From Rhodospirillaceae bacterium (GTDB lineage Bacteria; Pseudomonadota; Gammaproteobacteria; Steroidobacterales; Rariloculaceae): a stretch of DNA of 64,000 nucleotides. The stretch spans positions 1 to 64,000 of the forward strand of contig PBDA01000014.1 of assembly GCA_002718345.1 (NCBI GenBank), given 5' to 3'. Shown here in pieces: positions 2,164 through 39,491 of the stretch; positions within the stretch are counted from its first letter, which is position 1, and every line of letters starts with the position of its first letter. Position numbers and translations under genes: made by a program. The notes under the pieces are model-generated. The model was not told the DNA's origin. It worked only from the letters and a program-made list of their open reading frames with translations, and searched no databases.

Positions 2164-2994
2164 CTAGAGACGACCTCCCTGATTGCCACCTTGACCAGGC
2201 GGACCTACGATATGTTCAACATCTTGATTATTTTCATTACAAACATACTCCATAATATCCCAGCCAGGCCTGAGTGTTGAATCAAACTGCACCGTAAAAG
2301 GCTTTTCATAAGCGCCAGGATCAATAATAGTTACCGTCTTACGAAGAGTTCCATAATTGATTCGTTCAAAACGTTCGACTGTGTGCAACTGAGTTGAATG
2401 GGGATGACCTGCAAAATCAAACCAAAACCTATCATTAAAGCCAACAGTATCAACAACCAATACATCCCCTTCCCAATATCCAATTGAGTGCCCATACCAA
2501 GTGGGGTCGGGGTCCTCAGGGTGCTCTCGGCCATCCATAAAGATTTGACGATAACTATGCACATTTCCTTCAAAAAGAAAGTAAAAGTGAGTCACGGGTC
2601 CGCTCATGGGAGCGTGGACAATTCTCCAAGGAAATGGAGCAATGCGAGGGACGCCAGTTGGCAGGCAATTAGCCTCAGGATCATCTTTAGCCAGACGCGA
2701 ATCCATCAGTGCCTGTGCCTCTGGCAGAAGAACAACCTCTTCACCTTCTAATAAACCCACTCTGATATCCCGATGTGACCCAGTATCAACCCAGATACCT
2801 GAAAAATCCGGCTTTCCATCAGGCAACCTCGGTGCAGGCATTTGGAGGAGTTCATCTTCTGGGACTTGTGTAAGCAAATCTCCGCCTGCCCGAGAAAATA
2901 TTCTCGCATATTCGTCAGGATCAACGGCTCCTTCCTGAGCATTTAAAAATGAAGCGTAAACTAAGGCCACAAAAACCAATAAAAAATATTTCAT
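2164..2994 (-). CDS. Secreted protein homologous to the C-terminal domain of the DUF6152 fusion proteins
   Basis: Signal peptide; GKPDFSGIW; NCLPTGVPRI...DGREH...GHSIGYWEGDVLVVDTVGFND...EYVCNEN, matching the C-terminal halves of the 36564 and 16055 proteins. Confidence 0.7.
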   Translation of the reverse strand: MKYFLLVFVALVYASFLNAQEGAVDPDEYARIFSRAGGDLLTQVPEDELLQMPAPRLPDGKPDFSGIWVDTGSHRDIRVGLLEGEEVVLLPEAQALMDSRLAKDDPEANCLPTGVPRIAPFPWRIVHAPMSGPVTHFYFLFEGNVHSYRQIFMDGREHPEDPDPTWYGHSIGYWEGDVLVVDTVGFNDRFWFDFAGHPHSTQLHTVERFERINYGTLRKTVTIIDPGAYEKPFTVQFDSTLRPGWDIMEYVCNENNQDVEHIVGPPGQGGNQGGRL

Positions 2995-3010: not shown

Positions 3011-3445
3011 CTATTCTCTGTTGCCCATCACAACAGTGCCGTCAGAAAGGGTCACAAGCAGAGCGTTTGCCATCTTTGATCCGTCTCTAGCAAGGGTGCC
3101 CATTACCGTAACCTCATCTCCTTCTACAACAAAATATCGAGTCCAGCCATTTCTAACCATCATATTTGGGCTAGCTAATTCTAGATTCCAATTAATAACC
3201 GAACCACTTTCATCTTCTACATCAATATAAAAGCGTGCATGCGGATTAGTCCACTCGACCTTAGTTACAACACCCATCAGTTCTATAGGTTTATCTGCAT
3301 CATACTGAGCTGCAAAGGAATGGTGAGCAAGAGGTGAATCTGTCACAAAATAACAAAAGATAAAAGTAGAAACAGTCAAGTACCCAATAAATAAGTTCTT
3401 CATAATCCTCCTCCTCTTCTTATCATACCATTTATAAATTCCCAC
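3011..3445 (-). CDS. DUF6152-type secreted protein, stand-alone
   Basis: Signal peptide then AHHSFAAQYDADKPIELMGVVTKVEWTNPHARFYIDVED...GWTRY...GDEVTVMGTLARDGS. Confidence 0.75.
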   Translation of the reverse strand: MGIYKWYDKKRRRIMKNLFIGYLTVSTFIFCYFVTDSPLAHHSFAAQYDADKPIELMGVVTKVEWTNPHARFYIDVEDESGSVINWNLELASPNMMVRNGWTRYFVVEGDEVTVMGTLARDGSKMANALLVTLSDGTVVMGNRE

Positions 3446-3471: not shown

Positions 3472-5493
3472 TTACTCATCTACAAAGTGATCCCAGTATG
3501 TCCCAGCCTGTTCTAGGATTACCGGCAAGTCATCGTTCAACAAATAACCATCTTTAACCAAATCTATTGCTTCAATTGCAAACAAGCCAAGATACTCTTC
3601 TCGCCCTGAATAACGTTCTGCTATAGAAAGCCTAGGATCACCATCAATACGACGCTCTTCATGGGTTCTAGAAAAAGGGACTAATGACCCCTGACTGCTA
3701 TTTGGACTATAAGGATTCCACCCAGTATAAGTTGCTAATGGAACTGAAAGAAATGGCGAGCGCAATCCAGCCAACTCATTTCCGTCCTGATTAACCTGAG
3801 GCACTAAAAATGGAAAAATCCCCATAGACTTTGGAGGTTCTTGAGCAATAATTCCGAGGGATTCAAACTCTGCGCCATAATCTAACCGGTATGCACGACT
3901 TACCTCTAAAGGAACAGCAGAACGAGGAATATCAGGAAATTGAAAAGCTTCTAAGCTCACTAACGTTTGCTCAGAAACCAAGGGATATTGACTCTTTGGA
4001 GGCAACCCAAGGTTCTGCACCCAATCATCTAATTTCAAAAGCAATGAACGAAGAAACCACTTGTAGTCATTAGGATTTCCTATCTGCTGTCCAGATAATC
4101 GTGTCTCAGGCAATTTTCCTGGTACATGTTGTGTCCCTGAAAAAAGATAAATTCGAGAACTTTCAGCCGGGTCCACATCTTCTGTTCCGCTAACGTTGGT
4201 GTGAATCAAAGCCGTAGGCAGTCTCCAATATTCGGTTGACGAATTTGTGTAGAATATTTTTGGAATAGTTCTCTCAGAAACGCTACCAAATAAGCTATCT
4301 TCTATCCCAGTTAATGGGTCCGTCTGAACAACATCTGAAAATGGAAACTGATCACCAGGGTGAAAATAATTTGCATCAACAGCTCTAGATGGTTGGGCAA
4401 ATCTATGATTAAAGCCTCCACGAGCATTTGATCCAGTATGAATAATCATGCCATCGAAAACTTTTCTGGAAAACTCATCCTGATTAAAACCATCATATAA
4501 ATATGTCCGTAAGTATCGACCCGCTTGAGAATCCCCAAACGCCAATGCTCTATTAATTGCCTCTGCTGGGATACCAAGCTCTTCTAATGAGTCATATTTA
4601 AGCTGTGAAACAACATCTCTCATGGCAGCAAGACCGAGCCCTGCTACGGGCGGATTCTCCGATACAAATACCACCTCATATATACGGTTAGGCTCAAAAC
4701 CACCAATTAATGAAACACGAGTTTTATCTGATACCAAACGACCGTCTTCTGAACGTGCAAAATGCCATTCATCCCGCGGAATTAATATCCTTTCACCAGC
4801 AGCCCTATCGCGGACAGTTAACATATTACGAATATCATCCGGGTTCGCTACTGAATAAGGGGCATGTTCTCGGTCTCCGAGTGAATGATCTAAAGTTAAC
4901 TGATCAACTGTAAAATCACTACGCACAAGCCCTTGAATAGGCTCGCCATTTTGGCTAGGGATTTGAGTATAGACTCGCATGAGATGCTCTCTATCCGGAA
5001 CATCAAACTGCCAACCTACATATAGAATCGTATAACCATGCCGCAAAAGAAACCCATCTCCCATATCTAAAGCTGTTTGGGGATTATTACTTGTTTCTGA
5101 ACCATTAAAATAATAAAGAATTCGCTTCCTTCCTCGATTCATTACATCTAGAAATAAAGCTCCATTTCCTGCCTCTATACGCACCGGCTTCAGGATGTAA
5201 AAGTCAGCAGAGAATTCGACAAGATTACGCTCATTAACGGGCGCAAACCCAAGATCAATAATATTTTTATTTACAGAATTCTCCGGATCAATCTCATAGT
5301 AGATTTTTCCGGTGAGCTTTTCATAAGCGCCAGCAAGGCCATAAGAGATCCCTCCTGCCACATTTTCACGGGCTTCAACTTCTACACGAACAACTTCTGC
5401 CGTGACACACGACACATGCAACAATAATAAAAAAATAACATGCCGGAATACAATCACTGAAAAATGGCTCTCTAATTTACGATTGAATCCCAA
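3472..5493 (-). CDS. Secreted alpha/beta hydrolase-domain protein (Abhydrolase_10-like), copy 1
   Basis: Signal peptide; AFGDSQAGRYLRTYLYDGFN nucleophile region; LVPQVNQDGNELAGLRSP...TYTGWN; aligns with the neighbouring paralog. Start is TTG 5493 or GTG 5457. Confidence 0.78.
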   Translation of the reverse strand: MGFNRKLESHFSVIVFRHVIFLLLLHVSCVTAEVVRVEVEARENVAGGISYGLAGAYEKLTGKIYYEIDPENSVNKNIIDLGFAPVNERNLVEFSADFYILKPVRIEAGNGALFLDVMNRGRKRILYYFNGSETSNNPQTALDMGDGFLLRHGYTILYVGWQFDVPDREHLMRVYTQIPSQNGEPIQGLVRSDFTVDQLTLDHSLGDREHAPYSVANPDDIRNMLTVRDRAAGERILIPRDEWHFARSEDGRLVSDKTRVSLIGGFEPNRIYEVVFVSENPPVAGLGLAAMRDVVSQLKYDSLEELGIPAEAINRALAFGDSQAGRYLRTYLYDGFNQDEFSRKVFDGMIIHTGSNARGGFNHRFAQPSRAVDANYFHPGDQFPFSDVVQTDPLTGIEDSLFGSVSERTIPKIFYTNSSTEYWRLPTALIHTNVSGTEDVDPAESSRIYLFSGTQHVPGKLPETRLSGQQIGNPNDYKWFLRSLLLKLDDWVQNLGLPPKSQYPLVSEQTLVSLEAFQFPDIPRSAVPLEVSRAYRLDYGAEFESLGIIAQEPPKSMGIFPFLVPQVNQDGNELAGLRSPFLSVPLATYTGWNPYSPNSSQGSLVPFSRTHEERRIDGDPRLSIAERYSGREEYLGLFAIEAIDLVKDGYLLNDDLPVILEQAGTYWDHFVDE

Positions 5494-7523
5494 ATAACAC
5501 CAGCCTGTTCCAGAATCTCTCTTAGGTCTTCATCTAACAGATAACCTTCGTCGATAAGTTGAATAGCTTCTGCTGCAACAAGTCCAAGATAGTGATCACG
5601 ATTTTCATAACGTTCTTCAATAGACAGTCGAGGATCGCCATTTTGTACTCGCTCAGATTTCGTTGCATAGAAGGGAATAAAAGATCCCGACATATGAGAT
5701 GCTGTATCCGTTGGCCCATATTCTTCGTTGTATAAATTCCACCCAGTATAAGTTGCAAGCGGAACAAGTAGTCCAGGAGTCTGTAGTCCTCCTAACTCAT
5801 TGCCATCCTCATTAACCTGGGGAACAAGTATAGGAAAGGCTGGACCAACCTCTGGCGGCTCTTTCGTAATAATACCCTCGGACTCAAAAAGAGGACCATA
5901 ATCAACCCTATAAGCTTTATGCGTCTTAGCAGGAAAATTAATATTAGGTATTTCAGGAAAATTTACATTTTCTGGAAATACTAGTGTTTCATCTGCAATT
6001 AGAGGGTATTGACTTGGAGGCGCTGGTTTATCATGAATTATCCACTCATTCATTCTGACTAAAAGTGCCCGCATAAACCAAGAAAAATCATTTGGATTAT
6101 TGAGGTTTTGGCCATTAGTCCGCGTTGGTGGAAATGCAGCAGGCAAATGCTCAGACCCGGCAAAATGATACACCCTAGCATGTTCATCCATCATTGCAGC
6201 ATCTTCCTGACCATCAACAGTTGTTGTCAATAAAGATGAGACCCTACCCCAGTACTCATAAGATGAATTAACGTTGTAAACCTTGGGCATAAACTCTTCT
6301 GGCACGTGAGACAACATACCTGCTGTAACCCCGGTTACCGGATCAGTCTGCTCCACATCAGTGAAGGGAAAAATATCCGTGGGATAAAAAAAGTTCAGAA
6401 ACGGGTGAGCATCTCTTGACGCTTGGCCAAATCGCAAATTAAAACTACCCCGAGCCGCACCGCCTATCTGGGCAATAATTCCATCAAAAGCTTTTCGGTG
6501 CTGTTCATCTTCATTAAAACCCATATACACCAGTGTTCTAAGCGTTCTACCAGGTTGAGACATTCCATAACCAATGGCTTGATTTATGGACCCAGCAGGA
6601 ATATTAAGATCGCTTGAAGAACCATATTTAAAAGCTGAAACTGCGTCTCTGAGCGCGGCCAAACCTAATCCAATTATTTCTGGATTTTCTGCTTTATAAA
6701 TTACTTCATAGATCCGGTGAGGCTCGAAGCCTGACTCAAGATATACCCGAGTCCGGTCAGGCACAACTTCACCAATTCCTTCCTGTTCATCAACATTTTC
6801 TAACCGTGCAAAGTCCCATTGTTCTCGAGGAATCACCTGACGATCATCCTCAACATCATCACGAACAGTGAGGATACTCTCTGGAGCATCAGGATCCGAA
6901 ACCGGATATGGCACATGGTTTCGATCTGCAAGCGTTCGATCAAACACCCTTTCTCTCACTACAAAGTCACTGCGTATCAAACCCTCTATTGGTTCATCAG
7001 GCTCAACTCTGGGCAAAAACGCTCGGGATCCATTTGGACGGCTCAAGGGTACATCGAATTGCCAACCAACCCAAAGCAAACTAAAACCCTGCTCCATTAG
7101 GAACCCGTCCCCAAAATGCTCGGGTGCTGTGGGATTATCAGCATCCCATTTACCCTGACCCTGATGACCATGATTAAAGAACGTCAACATTCTTCTAGTA
7201 CCACGATTGGCTACGCCAAGCACAACTGTTCCGTTTCCACGTTCCATTTGTTTTGGTTTAATAAGAACAAAGTTTGCAGAAAACTCTACATTTCCCTGGT
7301 CATTGACAGGTGCATGTTCTATATCAACAACGATTTCATTGGCAGGGTTACTGGGATCAACCTCAAAATACATGGTGCCAATCATCTTTTCGTATGGGCC
7401 AGATAATCCCCAGGATTTACCCCCCAGGACATCCTCATGGATCTCAACATCAACTCCAACCATCTCTGAAGAGGCTGAATTAGTCAGAAAAACAAAGAAA
7501 AGGGCTTTAATTATAATTCTCAT
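5472..7523 (-). CDS. Secreted alpha/beta hydrolase-domain protein (Abhydrolase_10-like), copy 2
   Basis: MRIIIKALFFVFLTNSASSEMVGVDVEIHEDVLGGKSWGLSGPYEKM; GYGMSQPGRTLRTLVYMGFN; the ORF-track extension to 7796 overlaps the amidase and is not protein-like. Confidence 0.78.
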   Translation of the reverse strand: MRIIIKALFFVFLTNSASSEMVGVDVEIHEDVLGGKSWGLSGPYEKMIGTMYFEVDPSNPANEIVVDIEHAPVNDQGNVEFSANFVLIKPKQMERGNGTVVLGVANRGTRRMLTFFNHGHQGQGKWDADNPTAPEHFGDGFLMEQGFSLLWVGWQFDVPLSRPNGSRAFLPRVEPDEPIEGLIRSDFVVRERVFDRTLADRNHVPYPVSDPDAPESILTVRDDVEDDRQVIPREQWDFARLENVDEQEGIGEVVPDRTRVYLESGFEPHRIYEVIYKAENPEIIGLGLAALRDAVSAFKYGSSSDLNIPAGSINQAIGYGMSQPGRTLRTLVYMGFNEDEQHRKAFDGIIAQIGGAARGSFNLRFGQASRDAHPFLNFFYPTDIFPFTDVEQTDPVTGVTAGMLSHVPEEFMPKVYNVNSSYEYWGRVSSLLTTTVDGQEDAAMMDEHARVYHFAGSEHLPAAFPPTRTNGQNLNNPNDFSWFMRALLVRMNEWIIHDKPAPPSQYPLIADETLVFPENVNFPEIPNINFPAKTHKAYRVDYGPLFESEGIITKEPPEVGPAFPILVPQVNEDGNELGGLQTPGLLVPLATYTGWNLYNEEYGPTDTASHMSGSFIPFYATKSERVQNGDPRLSIEERYENRDHYLGLVAAEAIQLIDEGYLLDEDLREILEQAGVIWDSIVN

Positions 7524-7563
7524 TTTTTCTCCAAACGGATTTTCTAACACCGCATAGTAGAAA

Positions 7564-9114
7564 TTATGCAGTATTAATAACTGCCGGACGACTATTTGAG
7601 TACTGGGTTGCCTTTTCAAAAGCGTGTGCAATTTGTAACACTTCAAAATCACAATGATGACGTCCAACAATCTGCAACCCAATTGGCAATCCATCAGGCG
7701 TAAACCCACAAGGAATTGAAATTGCAGGCAGACCAGTACAGGTAATTGCATAACAAGTTGCCATCCAATCAATATATGTCTGCATCTCACTCCCATTTAT
7801 ATCTCTAACCCATTCAACTTCAACAGGAAATGGCGGCACCTGTGAAACTGGCAGCATTAGAAATTCATACTCGTCAAGAAATGCCATGATTCGACGATAC
7901 AAAGCTGTCCTAGCTGTCTGGGCTGAAGCTATATCGCGAGCAGTAAGGTTTAATCCGAGTTCAGTGTTCCAAATAACAGTATCTTTAATAAGGCTACGGT
8001 GGGCCAGAAGATCATCACGTCTACTCTCAGCAAACCCCCAAGCACGCAGCGTTTGAAAAATGTCATCTGCTCCTGAAAAATCTGGCTCAGCATCCGATAT
8101 ATCACATCCTAAATCTTGAAATACGCTTTTCGAGGCATTGCATACCTGATTGACGATTGGTTCAACAGGATAGTTTCCCAAGTTCTGACTCCAAGCAATT
8201 CTTGTGCCTTGAAAATCACGATCCAATGATTCAAGGAACCTTGAGCCTGATTCATCAAGTGAAATGGGATCTCTGGAGTCTGGACCAGCCATTACTGATA
8301 ACAAAAAGGCAAGATCTGATACCGTTCGAGCCATTGGCCCATGAACAGAAAGCGAGTTCCAAGCATTTGCCGATAACTTTGGTACGCGTCCTATCGATGG
8401 TCTAAAACCAACAATATTGCAAAAGCTTGCAGGGTTTCTAAGAGAACCACCAAGATCAGTGCCATCCGCTAGCGGGACCATCCCGCACGCCAATGCTACC
8501 GCTGCTCCACCACTACTACCGCCGCATGTTTTTGATAAGTCATAAGGATTTCTAGTAGCACCAAAAACTTCATTGTAAGTTTGTGAGCCTGCACCAAACT
8601 CCGGGGTATTTGTCTTTCCAATTATAATTGCTCCAGCCTGCCTCAAACGTTCAACATAAAGTTCATCTGTGTCTGGGACAAAATTCTGATAGATCCTAGA
8701 ACCACGGGTTGTGAGCAACCCTTTTGTCAAAGAAAGATCTTTAATTGCCATTGGTAGACCAAAGAGAGCGCCAACATTATCTCCTCGACTTAAAATTCGG
8801 TCGGCACCACGAGCTTCCTCAAGCAATTCCGCACGCGGGCGTAGTGTTGGAATGGCATTTACATGAGGATCAATACGCTCTATCTGATCTAGATATTGTT
8901 GAAGCAACTCGAGAACAGATATCTCTCGCGTACGAATTTGATTTGCTAAAATTTTTGCGTCAGTAAAGATGTGTAATTCCTCTGTTTGTTGATTTTGAGC
9001 GGACACTTTTGTAAGGCCTGCCATGGTAGCCGCGGAGATACCAATCACAAAATCTCTTCTAGAAAACCCATTCACATATTTTTTAGGTTTTATATTGCTT
9101 GGCAGGTCAACCAT
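7564..9114 (-). CDS. Amidase (amidase signature family) with Tat-like leader
   Basis: FSRRDFVIGISAATMAG; MAIKDLSLTKGLLTTRGS; GKTNTPEFGAGSQT; TCGGSSGGAAVALACGMVPLADGTDLGGSLRNPASF. Confidence 0.92.
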   Translation of the reverse strand: MVDLPSNIKPKKYVNGFSRRDFVIGISAATMAGLTKVSAQNQQTEELHIFTDAKILANQIRTREISVLELLQQYLDQIERIDPHVNAIPTLRPRAELLEEARGADRILSRGDNVGALFGLPMAIKDLSLTKGLLTTRGSRIYQNFVPDTDELYVERLRQAGAIIIGKTNTPEFGAGSQTYNEVFGATRNPYDLSKTCGGSSGGAAVALACGMVPLADGTDLGGSLRNPASFCNIVGFRPSIGRVPKLSANAWNSLSVHGPMARTVSDLAFLLSVMAGPDSRDPISLDESGSRFLESLDRDFQGTRIAWSQNLGNYPVEPIVNQVCNASKSVFQDLGCDISDAEPDFSGADDIFQTLRAWGFAESRRDDLLAHRSLIKDTVIWNTELGLNLTARDIASAQTARTALYRRIMAFLDEYEFLMLPVSQVPPFPVEVEWVRDINGSEMQTYIDWMATCYAITCTGLPAISIPCGFTPDGLPIGLQIVGRHHCDFEVLQIAHAFEKATQYSNSRPAVINTA

Positions 9115-10312: not shown

Positions 10313-10726
10313 ATGAACACCTTTAAACCAGCAATTCATTTAATCCTTAGTGCTGCAATTAATCTTGTGCTTAACTTGTCTGCTCAAGCTCATCATGGTG
10401 ACGCAGGTCGCTATGAAGATTCGATCATAGAGGTATCAGGGACTGTCGTAACTTTGCAATTTATGAATCCTCACTCACGACTTATCCTAGATGTGGCGGA
10501 TGAGCAAGGTCATATAATTAGGTGGCAAGCTGAATTTGGTAACCCGAATAGAATGAATTCTGAATTCGGATGGACACGAGAAACTTTAAAACCAGGAGAT
10601 CGAATAACACTCCTTGGCAGGCGTTTAAAAAGCGGTGCTCCATATTTAAACCTTACCGAAAGAGCACAAGTTAAATTGGCCCAAAGCGGTCAAGAAATAT
10701 ATAGAACGAGAGATTTCGCTGAATAA
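10313..10726 (+). CDS. DUF6152-type secreted protein, stand-alone
   Basis: Signal peptide ...SAQAHHGDAGRYEDSIIEVSGTVVTLQFMNPHSRLILDVADEQGH...FGWTRETLKPGDRITLLGRRLKSGAP. Confidence 0.75.
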   Translation: MNTFKPAIHLILSAAINLVLNLSAQAHHGDAGRYEDSIIEVSGTVVTLQFMNPHSRLILDVADEQGHIIRWQAEFGNPNRMNSEFGWTRETLKPGDRITLLGRRLKSGAPYLNLTERAQVKLAQSGQEIYRTRDFAE

Positions 10727-16054: not shown

Positions 16055-17098
16055 TCAGAAATTTGTACATACGTAGGGGTTAACTGTCTCGCCTGCACGC
16101 CACACCCATTGCTTTGTCATTTTTACTGGCTCCGTAAATGTCTCTGGGTCACTTACAATAATTGTGTAATCAAGATTTACTCCATTTTCGCTAAGTGAAA
16201 ATCGCTCCTCAAAACGAGCTCTTGAGCTTTGAGGTATCCCATCCGAATTAAAGTAGTACCAATCTACTGAGTGTGTAGAAACAACAAGATCCTCTCCATC
16301 CCAACTACCAACAGAGTATCCTAGAAGAGCTGGCTGTATGCTTGCTTCTATCTGTTCCTCACCCATATGAATGGTTCGTACTAAATCATACTCTTCAATA
16401 TGAAACAGAATGTTATCGCCCTCTTTAGAAAACTTAACTGGATAAGGCTGCTGCATAATCCAAGGCATGCCCTTAGGAGTACATTCCCCTATTGGATTAT
16501 CTACAAGCGGATTAAAAGCCTCTTGGGCAGCAATAGCTGTCTCAGTAAGTGGGTACTCTTCTAAATACATGTAACGCCCCGGCCCATTAAATCTGGTACT
16601 CCAGACACGAAAAATTCCCAGATCCTCCCCGCCCTCAACACCAGCAGATAACCAGGTCTCTGACTCACCCAGGGATTCAACTGACCAGTAAGGGTTTGTG
16701 CCTGGTCTAGTAACAAGTTCTCGTCCATCTGCAAGTAGAATATTGTTGACCCACATTTCATTAACGCCACTACGAGCGGGATACCCTGCCACGGTGACTC
16801 GATCACCCTCAGCGAGCAAATCTGAACTTACATTCATTCGACTAAGAATACTTACAGAGTTAGTTTCAATTTCCCACAACTGGTCATTTGTATCTAACAT
16901 CGTGAACTTCACGTGCGGATTTCTCCACAACAAGCGAGTAATTTGACCTTCTAATTCAATCAGATTGCTCATATCAAAAATCCCCGAAAAAGCATGATGT
17001 GAAACACCGGAAAGAGGAGTTAAAAAAATACAAAACAGAATGCAGATAGTTTTTTTCAAATCAATGCCTAAGTCTGCTTCATGCCAGAAAACCTCCAT
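16055..17098 (-). CDS. DUF6152-type domain fused to the second secreted domain
   Basis: SGVSHHAFSGIFDMSNLIELEGQITRLLWRNPHVKFTML then GECTPKGMPWIM...GYSVGSWDGEDLVVSTHSVDWYYFNSDGIPQSSRARFEERF...VSDPETFTEPV...YVCTNF. Confidence 0.72.
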   Translation of the reverse strand: MEVFWHEADLGIDLKKTICILFCIFLTPLSGVSHHAFSGIFDMSNLIELEGQITRLLWRNPHVKFTMLDTNDQLWEIETNSVSILSRMNVSSDLLAEGDRVTVAGYPARSGVNEMWVNNILLADGRELVTRPGTNPYWSVESLGESETWLSAGVEGGEDLGIFRVWSTRFNGPGRYMYLEEYPLTETAIAAQEAFNPLVDNPIGECTPKGMPWIMQQPYPVKFSKEGDNILFHIEEYDLVRTIHMGEEQIEASIQPALLGYSVGSWDGEDLVVSTHSVDWYYFNSDGIPQSSRARFEERFSLSENGVNLDYTIIVSDPETFTEPVKMTKQWVWRAGETVNPYVCTNF

Positions 17099-28663: not shown

Positions 28664-30817
28664 TTAAAAAGAATAACGTGCCGCAAAACCTATGACCCTG
28701 GGCTCTCCATATTGATAATAAGTCTCATTTTTCCACCCTTTTCTAGGATCATTTCCAAAGTAAAAACCGTGAACAGAAAAATCTTTATCAGACAAATTTC
28801 TTCCCCAAAATAAAAGCTCTGTTTTACCCATTTGATAACTTAGGCTTGCATTCAATAGATCGTAACCTTCAATTTTTTGTGCATGGTAGTAACCAAAAGT
28901 ACTTGCATCTCTGCCTTCAAGCTCCAATTGAAAACTCATTCTATCCGTCAGGGAAATATTAGCTCCAAAATGGTACTGCCAATGTGGAGATTTAGTCTGA
29001 TCAATATTTTCTCGATCTACAAAATCATAAATATCCAGATCGTACGTTTTAATATTCTCCACCTCAGCCTCAATCAGACCAAGGGAGCCTAACAACTGAA
29101 CTCTGTCTGAGAATTGATAACTAATCTCAGTCTCCAACCCCCAGTTAGTCCCATCAGCATTATCGAGAAATCCGATCCATAGGTATCCAGCAGCGTCATA
29201 CATCCAAGACTCCAGCTGTGCATTGTCTCTACTCATATGGAAAACTGAAGCTCGCATAGTTAACTGGTCATCAAGATAGAGCCCTTTTATCCCAATTTCC
29301 CTATTAACCAAAGCTTCTCTGCCAAACACTAGTCGAGGTCTGATAAATGCCTGGAAAGCTGTTTGCATAGAAGCCAGCTTTGCACTAGCTTCTGTGTTTA
29401 TCCCACCAGCCTTAGCGCCACTAGATATGGTCGCATAAAGCAGCGAGTTTTCACCCATAAGATATGTAAGGGTTAAGTCACCAGTTCGGAGGCGGTCATC
29501 GCTATTTGAGTTAAGTGCGACACTATCTCTATAAGCATCCTTGAAACTTTCATATCTCATACCAGCAGTGATGCTCAACCGCTCAGTAAGGTCAGAATCT
29601 ATTTGGGCATAAATAGCGCTTCTTTCAGTCTCATAAAAACTAAAAAAGTCTCCATAAGACTGTCTGTGTAAATCCTCATCCCTTCTCTGTGCATATACGC
29701 CCAAAACATATTGCGTATTGCCTAAACCTATAAAAGAAAAATCTCCCAACAAACGCGAATCAAAAGATATTTCGTTCCGATCTCTTAGATAACTATCTGT
29801 ATTGGAATAATAATCTAGTACGGGATCACACAATGTTCCGTCACATATTCCAACATAAGTCCAATCTTCATCAAAACTATATTCAAGGTCACTATCTAAC
29901 CAAGTAGCAACTGCTTCCAAGTTTACAAATTCACTTAATTGCCAAAAACCTCGCAAAGCTAACGCTAGGGTATCCTGATTATCATGGCCTGGCTTATCTG
30001 ACAAAGTATTTCTTGAATTGTCTAGCGAAAAAGCATCGTAACCATTGTTACCATCGAAATAGAAGGCTGTCACTTCAAAACTCGAACTATCCTTTGGCTG
30101 CAACTCGATAGATGCTCGTATGGTGGTTTCATCATAACCATTGGTATTAGAACGCCCTAAGTGGATATTATTGATATATCCATCTCCAATGTTCTTGTGC
30201 ACAGAAAGTCGCCCTGAGGTACTTGCGCTAATAGGGCCGCTTATTACGCCACCTGCATTTTGACTACCATAATCCCCTACCCCAATCTCAGCATAACCTT
30301 CAAAGTAATTTGTTGGGCGATTACTGCGAATATTCACAAGCCCTGCCAAAGCGCTTGTCCCAAATTGGGTACCTTGTGGCCCCCGAGAAATCTCAACCTG
30401 ATTAACATCAAACAGCATCCCGGCATTTGCAGTGCCTCCAAAATTGATATCATCAATCAAAATCCCAACAGAAGGAAAATGCTTAGGATCAACAAACTGT
30501 TCTAAATCACCAACTCCCCTAATTTGCACAAAACGTGAACGAGAAGAACCACCTGAATAATTAACATTTGGAGAGACACTTAATACTGACTCTAAGTGTT
30601 GTGCTCCGCGATTGCTGACAACAGACTCATTTATAACGGTGATACTACCCGGGCTAGTCATTAGGCCTTGTTCACGAAAACCTGCTGTTACCACTACTTC
30701 TTCAAGCGATGTGAAAGAATCTTGCGCTAAAACAGGCAGGGGTGAACTAAAGCCCAAAATAATTAGAGCTGCAGAACCGATAAACTCTAGAAAAAACCGC
30801 CAACAAGTACTAATCAA
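28664..30817 (-). CDS. TonB-dependent outer-membrane receptor, probable thiamine-family substrate by context
   Basis: SLEEVVVTAGFREQGLMTSPGSITVINE; QIRGVG; C-terminal PRVIGFAARYSF; strong SD GGAGG 6 nt before TTG at 30817. Confidence 0.88.
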   Translation of the reverse strand: MISTCWRFFLEFIGSAALIILGFSSPLPVLAQDSFTSLEEVVVTAGFREQGLMTSPGSITVINESVVSNRGAQHLESVLSVSPNVNYSGGSSRSRFVQIRGVGDLEQFVDPKHFPSVGILIDDINFGGTANAGMLFDVNQVEISRGPQGTQFGTSALAGLVNIRSNRPTNYFEGYAEIGVGDYGSQNAGGVISGPISASTSGRLSVHKNIGDGYINNIHLGRSNTNGYDETTIRASIELQPKDSSSFEVTAFYFDGNNGYDAFSLDNSRNTLSDKPGHDNQDTLALALRGFWQLSEFVNLEAVATWLDSDLEYSFDEDWTYVGICDGTLCDPVLDYYSNTDSYLRDRNEISFDSRLLGDFSFIGLGNTQYVLGVYAQRRDEDLHRQSYGDFFSFYETERSAIYAQIDSDLTERLSITAGMRYESFKDAYRDSVALNSNSDDRLRTGDLTLTYLMGENSLLYATISSGAKAGGINTEASAKLASMQTAFQAFIRPRLVFGREALVNREIGIKGLYLDDQLTMRASVFHMSRDNAQLESWMYDAAGYLWIGFLDNADGTNWGLETEISYQFSDRVQLLGSLGLIEAEVENIKTYDLDIYDFVDRENIDQTKSPHWQYHFGANISLTDRMSFQLELEGRDASTFGYYHAQKIEGYDLLNASLSYQMGKTELLFWGRNLSDKDFSVHGFYFGNDPRKGWKNETYYQYGEPRVIGFAARYSF

Positions 30818-30880
30818 AATGGACCTCCTTAATAACAAGAAATCCAGTTCGTATAGCGAGCAGGGATGACTATAGAACTT

Positions 30881-30987: not shown

Positions 30988-31518
30988 TTAACTATTCTCT
31001 TTTAACCGAGGCAAGAGCTCGACGAGATTACACGGCCTAGTTCGATAATCTAATTGCAATGAAATAATTTTTTCCCATCCAGTTATACACGCATTAGTTG
31101 ACCCAGGAAGACAAAAAATATAAGTGCCATTTGCTACGCCTGCAAGGCATCTTGATTGAAGGCTTGAAGTGCCAATTTCTTCATATGACAATGCACGAAA
31201 TAATTCGCCAAAACCATCAATAGTCTTTTCAAGTAACGGCTCTATTGCCTCTGGTGTTCCATCCCGTCCTGTAACTCCAGTTCCTCCTGTAGAAATAACC
31301 ACCTCAACATTATTATCAGCAATCCATTTTGATATTTGGTCGCTTATTTCTTTAAGATCATCCTTGACAATAACCTTTTCATACAATTGATGACCTACAC
31401 TGCTTAAACTCTTCACAAGCTGCGCACCCGACTGGTCAGTAGCTTCATTTCGCGTATCAGAAACACTAAGTATCGCAATACTTAATGGAATAAATTCTCT
31501 TTCTATCAACTGAGACAT
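30988..31518 (-). CDS. moaB: Molybdenum cofactor biosynthesis protein MoaB
   Basis: IAILSVSDTRNEATDQSGAQL; EVVISTGGTGVTGRDGTPEAIEPLLEK; FCLPGSTNACITGWEKII. Confidence 0.92.
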   Translation of the reverse strand: MSQLIEREFIPLSIAILSVSDTRNEATDQSGAQLVKSLSSVGHQLYEKVIVKDDLKEISDQISKWIADNNVEVVISTGGTGVTGRDGTPEAIEPLLEKTIDGFGELFRALSYEEIGTSSLQSRCLAGVANGTYIFCLPGSTNACITGWEKIISLQLDYRTRPCNLVELLPRLKENS

Positions 31519-31608: not shown

Positions 31609-32106
31609 TTATCTAACAGCAATCATCTGTAGCTCTACTTGAGCACCAACATTTAAGGCGGCAACCTGTACCGTAGCCCTTGCAGGGGGATCATTTGGAA
31701 AATACTCTCTATAAACTGAATTAAACTCTGGAAAATCATTAATATCAGTAATAAAAGCTGTAACTGTTGCAACATTTTCCAAACTCATATCAGCAGCTGT
31801 CAGGACTTCTTGAATATTAGCTATAGCCTGACGAGTTTCAGCCTGAATACCCCCCTCCACCAACTCAGTTGTCTGAGGATCTCGGCCTAGATGACCAGAT
31901 ATATAGAGCGTATCTCCCACAAGAATTCCAGGACTGTAGGGAAACCCAAAGTAAGGGTAATTTTCAGGACTAATTACAGAACGTCCTGACTGAGTTTGGT
32001 GCCAGTTAGGCTGACTCCATGCAGATGTAAAAGTTATCTGAAAGCCAATAAATACCCCCAACACAAGAACTAGCAGAGAAAGAGAAATAACATTACTTTT
32101 TTTCAC
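31609..32106 (-). CDS. RidA family protein with N-terminal signal peptide
   Basis: Hydrophobic leader; GILVGDTLYISGHLGRDPQT; TRQAIANIQEVLTAADMSLENVATVTAFITDINDF; PPARATVQVAALNVGAQVELQMIAV. Confidence 0.88.
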   Translation of the reverse strand: MKKSNVISLSLLVLVLGVFIGFQITFTSAWSQPNWHQTQSGRSVISPENYPYFGFPYSPGILVGDTLYISGHLGRDPQTTELVEGGIQAETRQAIANIQEVLTAADMSLENVATVTAFITDINDFPEFNSVYREYFPNDPPARATVQVAALNVGAQVELQMIAVR

Positions 32107-32148: not shown

Positions 32149-32556
32149 TCAGACATCAGTCACAGCCATAAGATCAACCTCAATTAAAAAGTCCTTATCA
32201 GCTAATTCTGTTACACCAATTAGGGTTGTTGGTGGTGGGTTATCTGGATCACCAAATTCTGGCGCCCCCTCTCCCCTTGTTTTACTTTTAAACTCTTCAA
32301 CATCGAGAACAAAGATTCGTCGAAAAACCACATCATTCCAATCTGCCCCTGCTGCTTTCAATTGTATTTCTAGATTTTTCATTACCGCAATGTACTGTGC
32401 ACGATAATCTCCAACGGATACAGGATAATAATTTTCATCAGATGGTGTTTGTCCTGCTATAAAAATCAATTTCATTGGTCCTTTCACAGTAATAATTCGC
32501 GTGAAATTGGGATGTTTATATAAGCTATCAGGGTTAATTCTTTCAATTTCCATCAT
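32149..32556 (-). CDS. RidA family protein
   Basis: LIFIAGQTPSDENYYPVSVGDYRAQYIAVMKNLEIQLKAAGADWNDVVFRRIFVLDVEEFK; TLIGVTELADKDFLIEVDLMAV. Confidence 0.85.
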   Translation of the reverse strand: MMEIERINPDSLYKHPNFTRIITVKGPMKLIFIAGQTPSDENYYPVSVGDYRAQYIAVMKNLEIQLKAAGADWNDVVFRRIFVLDVEEFKSKTRGEGAPEFGDPDNPPPTTLIGVTELADKDFLIEVDLMAVTDV

Positions 32557-34179: not shown

Positions 34180-36567
34180 TTAATCATTAACTGATTTTAA
34201 AGTGAGTCGGTGAGCTGCTCGGCTCTCAACAGCTTCTTTTGTGTTTAGGAGAGGAAAATAGCTTCCATTTCCTAGGGTTTCAGTCAGATCTCCATAAAAA
34301 GGACTACCAGGTTGTGCTGATTGTCCAGGGGCATTGGTAGCAACAGAACGATCTAAGTCCGCCAAATCTATAATCCGTCGAAAGTTTGCTCCTGTAGCGT
34401 TAAGGGATCCAAAGCCACCTGGTCTCTCAACTGCTGGCAAATTAAAGTCAGGAATAAACATATGTTGGAGCGGGCTTGCATGCACACGACCGTGGCGCCA
34501 CTGATCTCTATCAGGCCCAAGTTCTTGTGTTAAACGTTCAATAGCTGATCTGAGTCCTGCCTCTATATGAACGCGACGCTGTTGGAAGGCAATATCAGTC
34601 TGTCTCGCTCTCTCATCCACTTCTTCATTCCAACGCACATAAAGCGCGCCAGCAATACTGTCTCTAGAAAGCGTTGCATCCCAGGTTTCAATCAATTCCC
34701 TTGCCCATTCAATATCAGAATCATCTGAAACCCACCCACTAAACAAAGGAATGTCCCTCTCACCTGCCAGAGAATAGGCATCTTGCTGCATCTCAATATG
34801 TTCTTCGATTGAAGGTGCTTCGACCGAGCTTAAAAGCTGATGAAGTCTTGTTATTCTCGACGTTTCAACGCCTATAGAGGAATGGTAAAAAACTGGCCTG
34901 CCCTCATAACCAGACGGATGAACATTGTTGTTGGCAGTAGCTATATAACCTCTCTCAGGATTATATTCCCGCGGAAGATCTGTACGAAAACCACGCCATT
35001 CGTATTGACCCGTTCCTGGCACCGGCAACCGACCGTTCCAACCATTACGGTCTGGTGTGAAGCCGGTCACCTGCAGAGCAATATTTCCTTCCACATCCCC
35101 ACAAATGAGACTATGACTAGGCACTAGCCAGTGCATTGCTCTATCAAAGAAATCCTCGCAACTTTCAGCTTGAGCCATCTGAAAGCTTCCCTTATATGCA
35201 GCAGTTCCATGTTCCTGAACAACTGATCTAACAGAGAAGGCACGGCGATTATCAATATCTTCAAAAAAAACAGGTCCATGACGACTAAATTTCAAAACCA
35301 CAGGTTCCGGATCCTGTCCCTTTACAGGTATTTCCTCTTCAATAATATGAAGAGGCTCCCAGCCATCTTGCCATCTCACTAAATTAGGGTCGTCAGGATG
35401 CAACTCTTCAACAAATACATCGACCATATCAGTACCTGCAAAAGTGAATCCCCATGCTAAATGTTCATTATTCCCTGCATCCACACCAGCAAACGGTGGT
35501 TCGCCACCCCCAATGACATTCCATCCCGGGGCAACAAGATGCACAAAATAACGAAGGGCTGGCATTTCTATGCGGCGGTGCGGATCATTTGCCAAGATTG
35601 GAACACCTGTCGGAGATCGGTGTGGGCTCATTACCCAGTTGTTGCTTCCCTCTGTTGCAATTGGCCTCGGGGAAATCTGTGAGACCTGTAAATTTTCTGA
35701 CGAACCCATTGAGGCGTATGGTTCAATAATTTCTAAGGGAGGCAGTCTCCCTGTAACAAAAGGATCATCATCACCTTTACGCATAGCTTCAAGCAGCTCT
35801 TCAGTAAAAATGCTTATATCTAGTCCTTCAGGAACTATTAGTTCATCCCATGGATCTGGTGCTGCGATACGATTAGCCTCCTCCACACCAAGTTTTGCAA
35901 CATTTAATGCAAGCTGAACTTCATGAATTGCATGCCCACGAACACTTGGTACTGCAAGCGATGCCCAGCGCAAAACAATAGTTTCTGCAGACCAGGGCTC
36001 TGGGGAAATGCCAGTCATATGAAACTCTACCGGGAGGTTATCTTTATTATCTTCAATAAATGCGTTGACACCATTAGCATGGGCCGTAAATAGTTTTTTA
36101 GCATCAGGATGATAGCTAGTCCACTCATCCTCATTGAATGGGCCCCTAAACATCATTAAGCGAGTACGGCGATCATAATCGAGTGCTACTGGCCCAAAAA
36201 TCTCAGCGAGTCGACCTTCACGCCAGCGCCGCCACATCTCCATTTGCCAAAGCCGGTCTTGGGCCATGACATACCCTTGGGCAAAAAACAGATCCTCTTC
36301 ATTTTGAGCATAAATGTGAGGAATTCCCCACTCATCACGGATAACTTCGACTGACTCACGTAGCCCTGAAACCTGAATTTCGCCATCTATCTGTGCCAAA
36401 GCATCCAGCGCTAAGCCTTCTAAAGACTGTATAGGGTCTGAAGATGTACAGCTAAAAGCCGTAACTGCTAAACAGAAAATGGTGGCCCTTAAAAGAGGAT
36501 TGAATGCTTTGTAATTACCCGAAGGCAAACATAAACTCTCTTGGCTCGAATATTTAATTTTTTTCAT
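34180..36567 (-). CDS. Penicillin acylase-family Ntn hydrolase, probable lipoprotein
   Basis: Lipobox VTAFSC; VIRDEWGIPHIYAQNEEDLFFAQGYVMAQDRLWQMEMWRR; maturation site GSNNWVMSPHRSPTGVPILANDPH. Confidence 0.92.
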   Translation of the reverse strand: MKKIKYSSQESLCLPSGNYKAFNPLLRATIFCLAVTAFSCTSSDPIQSLEGLALDALAQIDGEIQVSGLRESVEVIRDEWGIPHIYAQNEEDLFFAQGYVMAQDRLWQMEMWRRWREGRLAEIFGPVALDYDRRTRLMMFRGPFNEDEWTSYHPDAKKLFTAHANGVNAFIEDNKDNLPVEFHMTGISPEPWSAETIVLRWASLAVPSVRGHAIHEVQLALNVAKLGVEEANRIAAPDPWDELIVPEGLDISIFTEELLEAMRKGDDDPFVTGRLPPLEIIEPYASMGSSENLQVSQISPRPIATEGSNNWVMSPHRSPTGVPILANDPHRRIEMPALRYFVHLVAPGWNVIGGGEPPFAGVDAGNNEHLAWGFTFAGTDMVDVFVEELHPDDPNLVRWQDGWEPLHIIEEEIPVKGQDPEPVVLKFSRHGPVFFEDIDNRRAFSVRSVVQEHGTAAYKGSFQMAQAESCEDFFDRAMHWLVPSHSLICGDVEGNIALQVTGFTPDRNGWNGRLPVPGTGQYEWRGFRTDLPREYNPERGYIATANNNVHPSGYEGRPVFYHSSIGVETSRITRLHQLLSSVEAPSIEEHIEMQQDAYSLAGERDIPLFSGWVSDDSDIEWARELIETWDATLSRDSIAGALYVRWNEEVDERARQTDIAFQQRRVHIEAGLRSAIERLTQELGPDRDQWRHGRVHASPLQHMFIPDFNLPAVERPGGFGSLNATGANFRRIIDLADLDRSVATNAPGQSAQPGSPFYGDLTETLGNGSYFPLLNTKEAVESRAAHRLTLKSVND

Positions 36568-37709
36568 CGGTTTACTGCCTGATTATCATTAAAATTAATA
36601 ACAGCCTCTTCAAACTCTGTAAAGGACTCGTCATCTAGACAAACAGATTCCTCCAATCGCCAATTAACTGTTTGAAAAACCCGACGTGCAGTCCAAGGCT
36701 CAGGAAATGCAATAGGATCTTCAACTGTTATATCAATAACCAACTCATTTTCACCAGTACGCTGTATACGTTCAATAACACGCAATTGATCACTATGTGG
36801 AAGACCACGCCGATCAATCCAGGTTTTGTCATTAAAGTTTCTTGTATCAATAACAAGGACATCATCATCCCAATACCCGATCGACTCTCCCATCCAAGAA
36901 GGGGGCCTACCTTGGCGGTGTTCTCGCCCATCTGTATATACTTGGCGAACCCAACCCTGATACTCATACGAAATCATAACTCGGTTGGGTGTATGAATAA
37001 TCTCAAATGGAGCGGGGTGAGCATAAATCCTTGGTACGCCCGGCGGGAGGCACTGATAAGCAGGGTCATTTGTTTCGCCAACAGCAACACCACGAGGCCC
37101 GAAAGTGGGTTTTGAATCATCAAAACGAACCCTTGCCCAATCTGTCATAACAGGCAAATCTTCTGTAAATGCGTAGTTCTGCCATCTAGCGTTGTAACTC
37201 CACCTCCACATACCAGTAAGATCTGACCCAGAAACAACTTGTTCTGAAGACGCCACTTCAGTCACAATCGGGCTAGCTGCACGCCCCAGAGTTGTTCCAC
37301 CCAATAGTGCAACACCATCAGCGTCTATTATTCTACGTATACGCATCGATGGGGCGCCATTTCTAGCAATTTCACCTGAAATTTCTATTGCATCACCAGG
37401 CTGAAGTGTTTCGGTTGTCCAACGTACAATATTAGTTGCTCCTCCGCCTCCAACTCCGCGCGCTAACCTGTTTGGAGTAGTCATTTCCCCAGACCATTCC
37501 ACAACCTGTCCATCTTCACTCTCCACAGAGAAATAAACAAGCACATGAGGATAAACAAATCTAAATTGAGTTACCTCGCCGCGGAAAGTAACCTGTTGAG
37601 TTAAGTCATATACGGCACCGCCATGATGTGCGCTTAGGCTTGAACACATACCACACAGCCCGACTACTGAAAGGTTTAATAAATTTCTTAATATCATCTT
37701 ATTTTTCAT
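36564..37709 (-). CDS. DUF6152-type domain fused to the second secreted domain
   Basis: SLSAHHGGAVYDLTQQVTFRGEVTQFRFVYPHVLVYFSVESEDGQ...QCLPPGVPRIYAHPAPFEIIHTP...DGREHRQGRPPSWMGESIGYWDDDVLVIDTRNFNDKTWIDRRGLPHSDQLRVIER; ATGA overlap with acylase gene. Confidence 0.75.
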   Translation of the reverse strand: MKNKMILRNLLNLSVVGLCGMCSSLSAHHGGAVYDLTQQVTFRGEVTQFRFVYPHVLVYFSVESEDGQVVEWSGEMTTPNRLARGVGGGGATNIVRWTTETLQPGDAIEISGEIARNGAPSMRIRRIIDADGVALLGGTTLGRAASPIVTEVASSEQVVSGSDLTGMWRWSYNARWQNYAFTEDLPVMTDWARVRFDDSKPTFGPRGVAVGETNDPAYQCLPPGVPRIYAHPAPFEIIHTPNRVMISYEYQGWVRQVYTDGREHRQGRPPSWMGESIGYWDDDVLVIDTRNFNDKTWIDRRGLPHSDQLRVIERIQRTGENELVIDITVEDPIAFPEPWTARRVFQTVNWRLEESVCLDDESFTEFEEAVINFNDNQAVNR

Positions 37710-38394: not shown

Positions 38395-39003
38395 ATGACC
38401 AAATCAGATAATCACAATAACAGTTACCTTTGGAGCTTGATTCTGGCAGCCGGTGACTCAAGTCGACTAAAGTCTCCTAAGCAATTTTTGAGATACCAGG
38501 GTCGAAGTTTAATTGCACATGCAGTAAATACTGCAGAACTTGTGACACCTGATAGAGTACTTGTTGTTCTTGGAGCACATGCATTAAGAATACAGAAACT
38601 ACTTCAAAGTCAGCACCCAAATGCCTGCACAATCACTAATTCAGAATGGAAAAAAGGGATGAGCAGCTCTCTTTCAATAGGACTTTCCTCATTACCTGAA
38701 TGCGCAAAGGCAGCATTAATTTTAGTCTCTGATCAACCTTATGTAAGCATTAAATCCCTAAACCGTCTTGTTCAAAAATGGAGCCAATGCCCGTCACATA
38801 TAGCCGCAGCTTATTATGAAAATAGGCTTGGTGTGCCTGTAATTTTACCTAGAACATTTTGGAGTAAAGCACAAACAATTGAAGGCGATATTGGTGCCCG
38901 AAAATTGATTAGAGACAGTATCAAACCGATTAGTGCCGTACCCATGCAAGAAGCTTCTTTCGATATTGACACAAAAGAAGACGCGGAAAACTTAAAAAAC
39001 TAG
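38395..39003 (+). CDS. MobA/MocA-like nucleotidyltransferase (molybdenum cofactor cytidylyltransferase type)
   Basis: SLILAAGDSSRLKSPKQFLRYQGRSLIAHAVNTA; ALILVSDQPYVS; FDIDTKEDAENL. Confidence 0.85.
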   Translation: MTKSDNHNNSYLWSLILAAGDSSRLKSPKQFLRYQGRSLIAHAVNTAELVTPDRVLVVLGAHALRIQKLLQSQHPNACTITNSEWKKGMSSSLSIGLSSLPECAKAALILVSDQPYVSIKSLNRLVQKWSQCPSHIAAAYYENRLGVPVILPRTFWSKAQTIEGDIGARKLIRDSIKPISAVPMQEASFDIDTKEDAENLKN

Positions 39004-39056: not shown

Positions 39057-39491
39057 CTATGTATTACCGGTTTGACAATTAATCCAACTAGAATTTCCGT
39101 TAAGATAATACTCTTTCTTCCATATAGGAAGGCGATGCTTTAATTCATCAATGATATAACGACACCCCTCAAAAGCCGGGCCACGATGCATTGCGCTTAC
39201 TCCCACCCAAACTGCGCAATCGCCAATCTGAAGATGGCCAATACGATGAAAACTTCTAGCTGCTATAAGCTCAAACTTTTCAATTGCTTCAACAAGAATT
39301 TTTTCACCTTCACTAGTGGCAACTGCTGTATGTGCTTCATATTCTAAAGAAATAACAACTTTACTATCATTAAGGTTACGGACCCAACCTTCAAAAGATG
39401 CGTAGGCACCAGCAGATTCATCTCTCAATTCTTGGTTTAATGAGGTGATACTCATAGGTTCGCTAGCAATTTTAAAAACAGGACTACTCAC
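39057..39491 (-). CDS. moaE: Molybdopterin synthase catalytic subunit MoaE
   Basis: GAYASFEGWVRNLNDSKVVISLEYEAH; RIGHLQIGDCAVWVGVSAMHRGPAFEGCRYIIDELKHRLPIWKKEYY. Confidence 0.93.
   Translation of the reverse strand: MSSPVFKIASEPMSITSLNQELRDESAGAYASFEGWVRNLNDSKVVISLEYEAHTAVATSEGEKILVEAIEKFELIAARSFHRIGHLQIGDCAVWVGVSAMHRGPAFEGCRYIIDELKHRLPIWKKEYYLNGNSSWINCQTGNT

Follow-up and report, generated by a model that had tools for sequence, protein, structure and literature searches.

Predicted N-terminal His-His and a third invariant histidine suggest a histidine-brace-like metal site on the OB-fold of DUF6152 proteins

We propose, with a confidence just above even, that DUF6152 proteins carry a histidine-brace-like metal site, probably for Cu(II), on an OB-fold and that they act together with the membrane protein DUF6644; we infer the metal, the geometry and the function of this site from several computed results. 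These are a predicted export box directly at a His-His pair, the invariance of three histidines, an OB-fold prediction, and gene linkage to DUF6644 and to a secreted partner domain. Four family members lie in the window, the whole stretch of 64,000 nucleotides analyzed here (positions 1 to 64,000 of contig PBDA01000014.1, Rhodospirillaceae bacterium). A literature search returned no paper naming DUF6152 or DUF6644; both are known, unnamed Pfam families, and what is new here is the analysis of the signal box and its His-His, the linkage of DUF6152 to DUF6644, and the partner domain.

DUF6152 copies in the window and the source genome

The ORFs of all four proteins are present in the window, three on the minus strand and one on the plus strand, and in a Pfam scan all of them match PF19649 (DUF6152) at E-values from 1e-27 to 2e-15; their scores of 96.4, 67.6, 58.7 and 56.8 bits against a gathering cut-off of 27 bits make them members of the family.

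3011..3445, minus strand: DUF6152 copy 1, single domain; PF19649 E 1e-27, OB-fold model pLDDT 91.5; mature chain 3014-3325, His-His codons 3320-3325, codon of the NPH histidine (H29) 3239-3241
10313..10726, plus strand: DUF6152 copy 2, single domain; His-His codons 10391-10396; PF19649 E 1.1e-18
16055..17098, minus strand: DUF6152 copy 3 with fused C-terminal partner domain; His-His codons 16994-16999; PF19649 E 6.5e-16
~16058-16600, minus strand: partner domain of copy 3; partner HMM 162 bits
36564..37709, minus strand: DUF6152 copy 4 with fused C-terminal partner domain; His-His codons 37623-37628; PF19649 E 2.4e-15
~36567-37220, minus strand: partner domain of copy 4; partner HMM 222 bits

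The junctions that a preliminary description of this DNA had given as signal-peptidase sites (SPLA↓HHSFAAQYD, AQA↓HHGDAGRY, GVS↓HHAFSGIF and LSA↓HHGGAVYD) are present as quoted, as are the internal motifs TNPH, MNPH, RNPH and VYPH. For copy 1, the ATG at 3403, 14 codons inside the listed GTG start, yields a normal 26-residue signal peptide and is probably the true start. In the Pfam scan no family other than DUF6152 scored above cut-off in the window copies, the CopC, DUF1775 and LPMO models being unmatched, and a PDB sequence search with DUF6152 found no relative (best E 0.92). The source genome (2.29 Mb, 86% complete) holds 57 DUF6152 domains.

Predicted export site and invariant histidines

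Each of the 57 copies in the source genome has the HH pair as well as the P-H of the internal motif, and each has a predicted export box at HH. The residue at position -1 to HH is A in 36, G in 8, S in 7, T in 5 and C in 1; position -3 is A in 15, V in 11, S in 7, G, T and L in 6 each, and I in 4, with one P and one N; position -2 is mixed and includes F, H, W, Y, K and R. Judged from sequence, this pattern of -1 and -3 residues directly at HH is the signature of signal peptidase I. The wider family agrees: among 324 distinct full-length DUF6152 members all have HH, the residue at -1 is A in 282, G in 18, S in 14, T in 7, P in 2 and C in 1, and a hydrophobic stretch lies upstream of HH in 323. 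A permissive signal peptidase I rule for -3 and -1 is satisfied at HH in 97% of these members, compared with 0-66% at shifts of -6 to +4 from HH and 85% at a shift of +5 (H-H-S-F-A↓A). Eighty loci were collected with search patterns that themselves contain HH or NPH; in the subset found with the Pfam HMM only (n = 115), HH and the third His are each present in 115/115. The placement of HH relative to the predicted cleavage site is far beyond chance. The preliminary description had claimed a mature N-terminal His-His, and had named cleavage away from HH and poor conservation of HH in the wider family as grounds against this; what we found instead is a -3/-1 rule that fits HH and a pair that is kept throughout, in good agreement with the claim.

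True cleavage might nevertheless lie five residues deeper, with His-His lost together with the signal peptide, and the fit of the permissive rule to the +5 shift in most members speaks for it. We regard this as highly improbable, because a signal peptide would not retain this His pair in all 324 members, because an unusually long c-region (~11 residues in copy 1) would be required, and because it is at the HH site that -3 and -1 are restricted while -2 is free; the invariance of HH would also be left without explanation.

A second conserved His beyond the N-terminal one had been claimed as well, and this can be confirmed: the His of the NPH motif, H29 of the mature chain, is kept in 324/324 members (its P in 321), and H2 is invariant too. 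In an alignment of 143 sequences, mostly 22-60% identical to copy 1, no column other than H1, H2 and H29 is invariant; G18, N27, P28, W46, G60 and G69 reach 90%, and in the larger alignment W46 stands at 95% and E49 at 92%. As in histidine-brace proteins, the predicted mature chain begins with His and contains further invariant His (H2 and H29). The standard brace consists of one N-terminal His and a distant His, from which the two adjacent invariant N-terminal His of DUF6152 differ.

Predicted fold and coevolution

AlphaFold2 modeled mature copy 1 with the 143-sequence alignment at a pLDDT of 91.5 and a pTM of 0.83. The model has the element order of an OB-fold, b1-b2-b3-helix-b4-b5, in a five-strand barrel, and places H29 in L12, the loop that joins strands 1 and 2; a Foldseek comparison with the PDB returned the OB-folds of SSB, Rim1 and PriB (E 3e-4 to 1e-3, TM ~0.6). 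Coevolution in 323 sequences recovered the OB strand pairs R31-N47, M17-T73 and L48-A86. It also coupled Y8 of the N-terminal segment to R31 (z 3.3, 25/30 bootstraps) and to E49 (z 3.6, 21/30 bootstraps), which lie on strands 2 and 3 beside L12, and the same segment to strands 4 and 5 (F4-N87, Q7-A79). This evidence comes from variable columns only; DCA scores for H1-H29 and H2-H29 were discarded as zero-variation artefacts of invariant columns. The coevolving neighbors agree with H1 and H2 lying close to H29, which weakly suggests such an arrangement and falls short of proof.

Two broader claims of the preliminary description can now be taken in parts. Its view of these proteins as small secreted metal-binding beta-domain proteins gains from the export box, the invariance of the His and the confident OB-fold, and the metal binding itself stays putative. 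The likeness to a histidine brace holds as far as the N-terminal His and the further invariant His go, but by fold DUF6152 is no member of the LPMO or CopC groups. We rejected membership of the CopC, YcnI and LPMO families on the lack of a sequence match and on the fold, which is an OB barrel and not cupredoxin- or immunoglobulin-like.

A secreted partner domain and other neighbors

Copy 1 lies between a secreted protein of the partner-domain family and an Abhydrolase_10 protein.

2164..2994, minus strand: secreted partner-domain protein, directly downstream of copy 1; no Pfam match up to E 1
3472..5493, minus strand: Abhydrolase_10 protein, next gene upstream of copy 1; PF20091 E 1.4e-29
5472..7796, minus strand: second Abhydrolase_10 protein; PF20091 E 5.7e-32; start codon uncertain, ORF overlaps its neighbors

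Of the 57 DUF6152 copies of the source genome, 23 carry the partner domain as a C-terminal fusion, among them 16055 and 36564, and a further 21 have it next to them on the same strand, so that 44/57 are fused or adjacent to it; a partner scan found none within 2.5 kb of copy 2. None of 80 partner-family members matched a Pfam family and no PDB chain was matched in a sequence search with the domain, of which the fetched loci contain 384 ORFs at E 1e-10. Its consensus is PDLxGxW...CxPxGxPR...GxWEGDTLVV...GxPHS...ER...ExxC, with two invariant Cys. The AlphaFold2 model (pLDDT 89.2, pTM 0.87) has calycins (UnaG, CRABP) as its nearest PDB folds, with a weak likeness (E 2e-3, TM 0.33).

Another secreted family of ~220 aa, without a Pfam entry, adjoins several partner-less DUF6152 copies of an HHSH type; on impression only, its sequence is PsbP-like.

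L107:6178-6849, L113:4373-5029, L112:8035-8715, L115:3646-4299, L120:3352-4020 and L117:3575-4234: ~220-aa secreted family beside HHSH-type DUF6152

A different subfamily of DUF6152, of an HHGW type, occurs in single-copy genomes (L072, L074, L081, L083, L084, L086), mostly with DUF6644 adjoining and with the calycin-like partner missing.

Other neighbors of DUF6152 in the source genome belong to diverse families (amidases, FAA hydrolases, transporters, Abhydrolase_10), and the neighbor censuses otherwise gave scattered catabolic and housekeeping genes. Abhydrolase_10 also stands between partner and DUF6644 in one locus (L207:5693-7180, PF20091 E 1.7e-100). A GMC oxidoreductase that neighbored DUF6152 in three loci was dropped, at least two of those genomes being from one genus. 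Elsewhere in the window, the molybdenum cofactor genes MoCF_biosynth, MobA-like and MoaE (30988-31518, 38395-39003 and 39057-39491) lie around copy 4 and its penicillin-amidase neighbor, and tandem RidA-like (Ribonuc_L-PSP) genes (31609-32106 and 32149-32556) lie near a TonB-dependent receptor (28664-30838).

Linkage to the membrane protein DUF6644

In genomes with a single DUF6152 gene, the usual next downstream gene encodes DUF6644 (PF20349), a four-helix membrane protein. Of 299 Pseudomonadota genomes, 31 have DUF6152 and 29 have DUF6644, with 26 having the two together (Fisher p 3e-29, a value that ignores kinship among genomes, with DUF6644 presence called at E 0.01), and DUF6152 is present in all 15 genomes whose DUF6644 exceeds its Pfam cut-off. 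The two genes are on the same strand and at most 1 kb apart in 18 of 21 single-copy genomes; in the remaining ones they belong to one gene run in G343 and G345 and not in G127. In one of the 18, G076, the DUF6644 match is weak and lies upstream of DUF6152. DUF6644 was also present in 10 of 80 named loci, several of them from Acidobacteria. No more than two DUF6644 genes occur in the source genome; they directly adjoin each other in one operon (L109), flanked on each side by a DUF6152 gene.

G000:C8:36000-50000, one strand: L109 operon with fused DUF6152-partner, DUF6644, DUF6644, DUF6152, three partners, DUF6152, partner

One DUF6644 member exceeds the cut-off of CopD (PF05425) at E 8.9e-9 (36.1 vs 32.1 bits), and 2 of 14 members match CopD at E 0.05 or below. 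Equating DUF6644 with CopD by profile comparison was tried and failed, direct comparison of the two profiles giving an hhalign probability of 2.4% and the iterated profile an E of 0.25 at best. Kinship to CopD is suggestive and no more. DUF6644 members also give weak matches to COX15-CtaA (E 0.0076), the family has a single invariant His, located in the membrane, and in L221 the gene is followed by a ferric-reductase-like flavocytochrome. Besides DUF6644, no classical copper genes recurred in the neighbor censuses of the source genome and the single-copy genomes.

A proposed metal site and its alternatives

According to our proposal, signal peptidase I would cleave DUF6152 upon export and leave a chain starting with His-His, and the mature protein would fold as a small OB barrel with its N-terminal segment near L12 and the NPH histidine. 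The terminal amine together with His1 and/or His2 and His29 might then bind one metal, most likely Cu(II), in a histidine-brace-like manner. The basic module would be DUF6152 with DUF6644, the latter maybe a CopD relative, in which DUF6152 probably captures periplasmic Cu(II) and, by analogy with CopC or YcnI and CopD, hands it to DUF6644 or regulates that protein. In the bacterial family to which the window belongs, DUF6152 has multiplied to dozens of copies, mostly fused or linked to the calycin-like secreted partner, which would serve other uses; a putative oxidative role in this expanded lineage is possible. We infer copper, for which the linkage to the weakly CopD-like DUF6644 offers contextual support; against the proposal stand the thin link of DUF6644 to CopD, the lack of recurrent classical copper genes among the neighbors, a copy number of 57, which exceeds what copper uptake should require, the absence of a nearby DUF6644 from most DUF6152 copies in the source genome, and the deviation of two adjacent N-terminal His from the standard brace. 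If copper is bound, DUF6152 would present a histidine-brace-like centre on an OB-fold, the DUF6152 and DUF6644 proteins that co-occur in Pseudomonadota and Acidobacteriota would gain a function, and the retention of dozens of copies by some bacteria, far beyond the expected needs of copper uptake, would call for an explanation.

The three His could instead hold zinc, nickel, iron or heme, with DUF6152 and DUF6644 serving that cofactor in a way comparable to the OB-fold heme chaperone CcmE, an option that we find unlikely while giving it some weight. OB-folds serve several cofactors, such as heme in CcmE and copper in CusF, and His ligands alone cannot discriminate between metals; the weak COX15-CtaA matches of DUF6644, its one invariant membrane His and the flavocytochrome in L221 would fit as well. 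However, the match of DUF6644 to CopD is stronger than that to COX15, its one invariant His is too few for a bis-His heme, and a free N-terminal His typically marks a Cu(II) site (PMC10952591). That the His are not metal ligands, and serve instead to bind or convert an organic ligand, or to contact DUF6644 or the partner domain, seems to us distinctly unlikely, since they are kept in members with differing partners or none and since metal chelation is the typical reason for needing both residues at a free N-terminus. Strict conservation alone would fit a protein-protein contact, the partner domains are conserved in linkage, and the loop region of an OB-fold, which here holds H29, often serves ligand binding.

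Copper could also be put to a different use, in an oxygenase or peroxygenase whose OB domain is the reactive copper centre and whose calycin-like partner binds the substrate, with paralogs differing in their compounds. The many copies fused or adjacent to a barrel of ligand-binding type, the dozens of diverged paralogs, the scattered catabolic neighbors and the catalytic role of the histidine brace in LPMOs (PMC10952591) would all be in keeping with such an enzyme. Yet neither an electron donor nor a known substrate is consistently linked to DUF6152, the neighbor families vary from copy to copy, the likeness of the partner to calycins is weak, and single-copy forms do without the partner and keep only DUF6644. 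An oxygenase or peroxygenase seems to us quite improbable.

Comparison with known systems

The closest functional parallels come from copper proteins. CopC and YcnI hold Cu(II) via their mature N-terminal His, CopD frequently neighbors the genes of CopC and DUF1775, and YcnI exchanges Cu(II) with the CopC domain of YcnJ (PMC12362106). Like CopC, which acts with CopD and forms a domain of Bacillus YcnJ, DUF6152 is predicted to be secreted with a mature N-terminal His, has further invariant His and has a multi-helix membrane protein encoded next to it (PMC12362106); it differs in its OB-fold, in its two consecutive N-terminal His, in the absence of a Pfam CopC match and in a partner, DUF6644, that is weakly CopD-like. 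The mono-histidine brace of YcnI (DUF1775) combines its N-terminal His with a Glu and a Trp (PMC12362106), and DUF6152 likewise has an N-terminal His together with a conserved Trp (W46) and Glu (E49). The neighbor of YcnI is CopD (PMC12362106) and that of DUF6152 is DUF6644, possibly of CopD type; YcnI, however, is cupredoxin-like in fold and is anchored to the membrane at its C-terminus, whereas DUF6152 is modeled as a soluble OB barrel and has no Pfam DUF1775 match.

In the histidine brace, as reviewed in PMC10952591, copper is held by the amine and side chain of the N-terminal His and by another His. LPMOs, PmoB, PmoF1 and X325/DUF6595 share with DUF6152 an N-terminal His and another His, which hold copper in those proteins (PMC10952591). 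The fold of DUF6152 differs from theirs and it has no sequence match to them. CusF and CcmE are small periplasmic OB-fold chaperones for metal or heme, and DUF6152 resembles them as a small, predicted periplasmic OB-fold for which we propose that it carries a metal or cofactor. CusF has its ligands (His, Met and Trp) in the interior of the barrel and CcmE uses a C-terminal His, so that neither relies on an N-terminal His, unlike DUF6152, which also has no sequence match to either.

Expansion and distribution of DUF6152

Most genomes of the same family (G000-G021) have dozens of DUF6152 copies, many of them at least 70, and first-look candidates number up to 192 in one 4.5-Mb genome of that family, compared with 57 in 2.3 Mb here. 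In other families of the same order DUF6152 is mostly absent. Finally, a MAG labeled Bordetella parapertussis (L125) contains a DUF6152 protein 65% identical to copy 1 that ranks among Acidobacteria matches, and its label is probably wrong.
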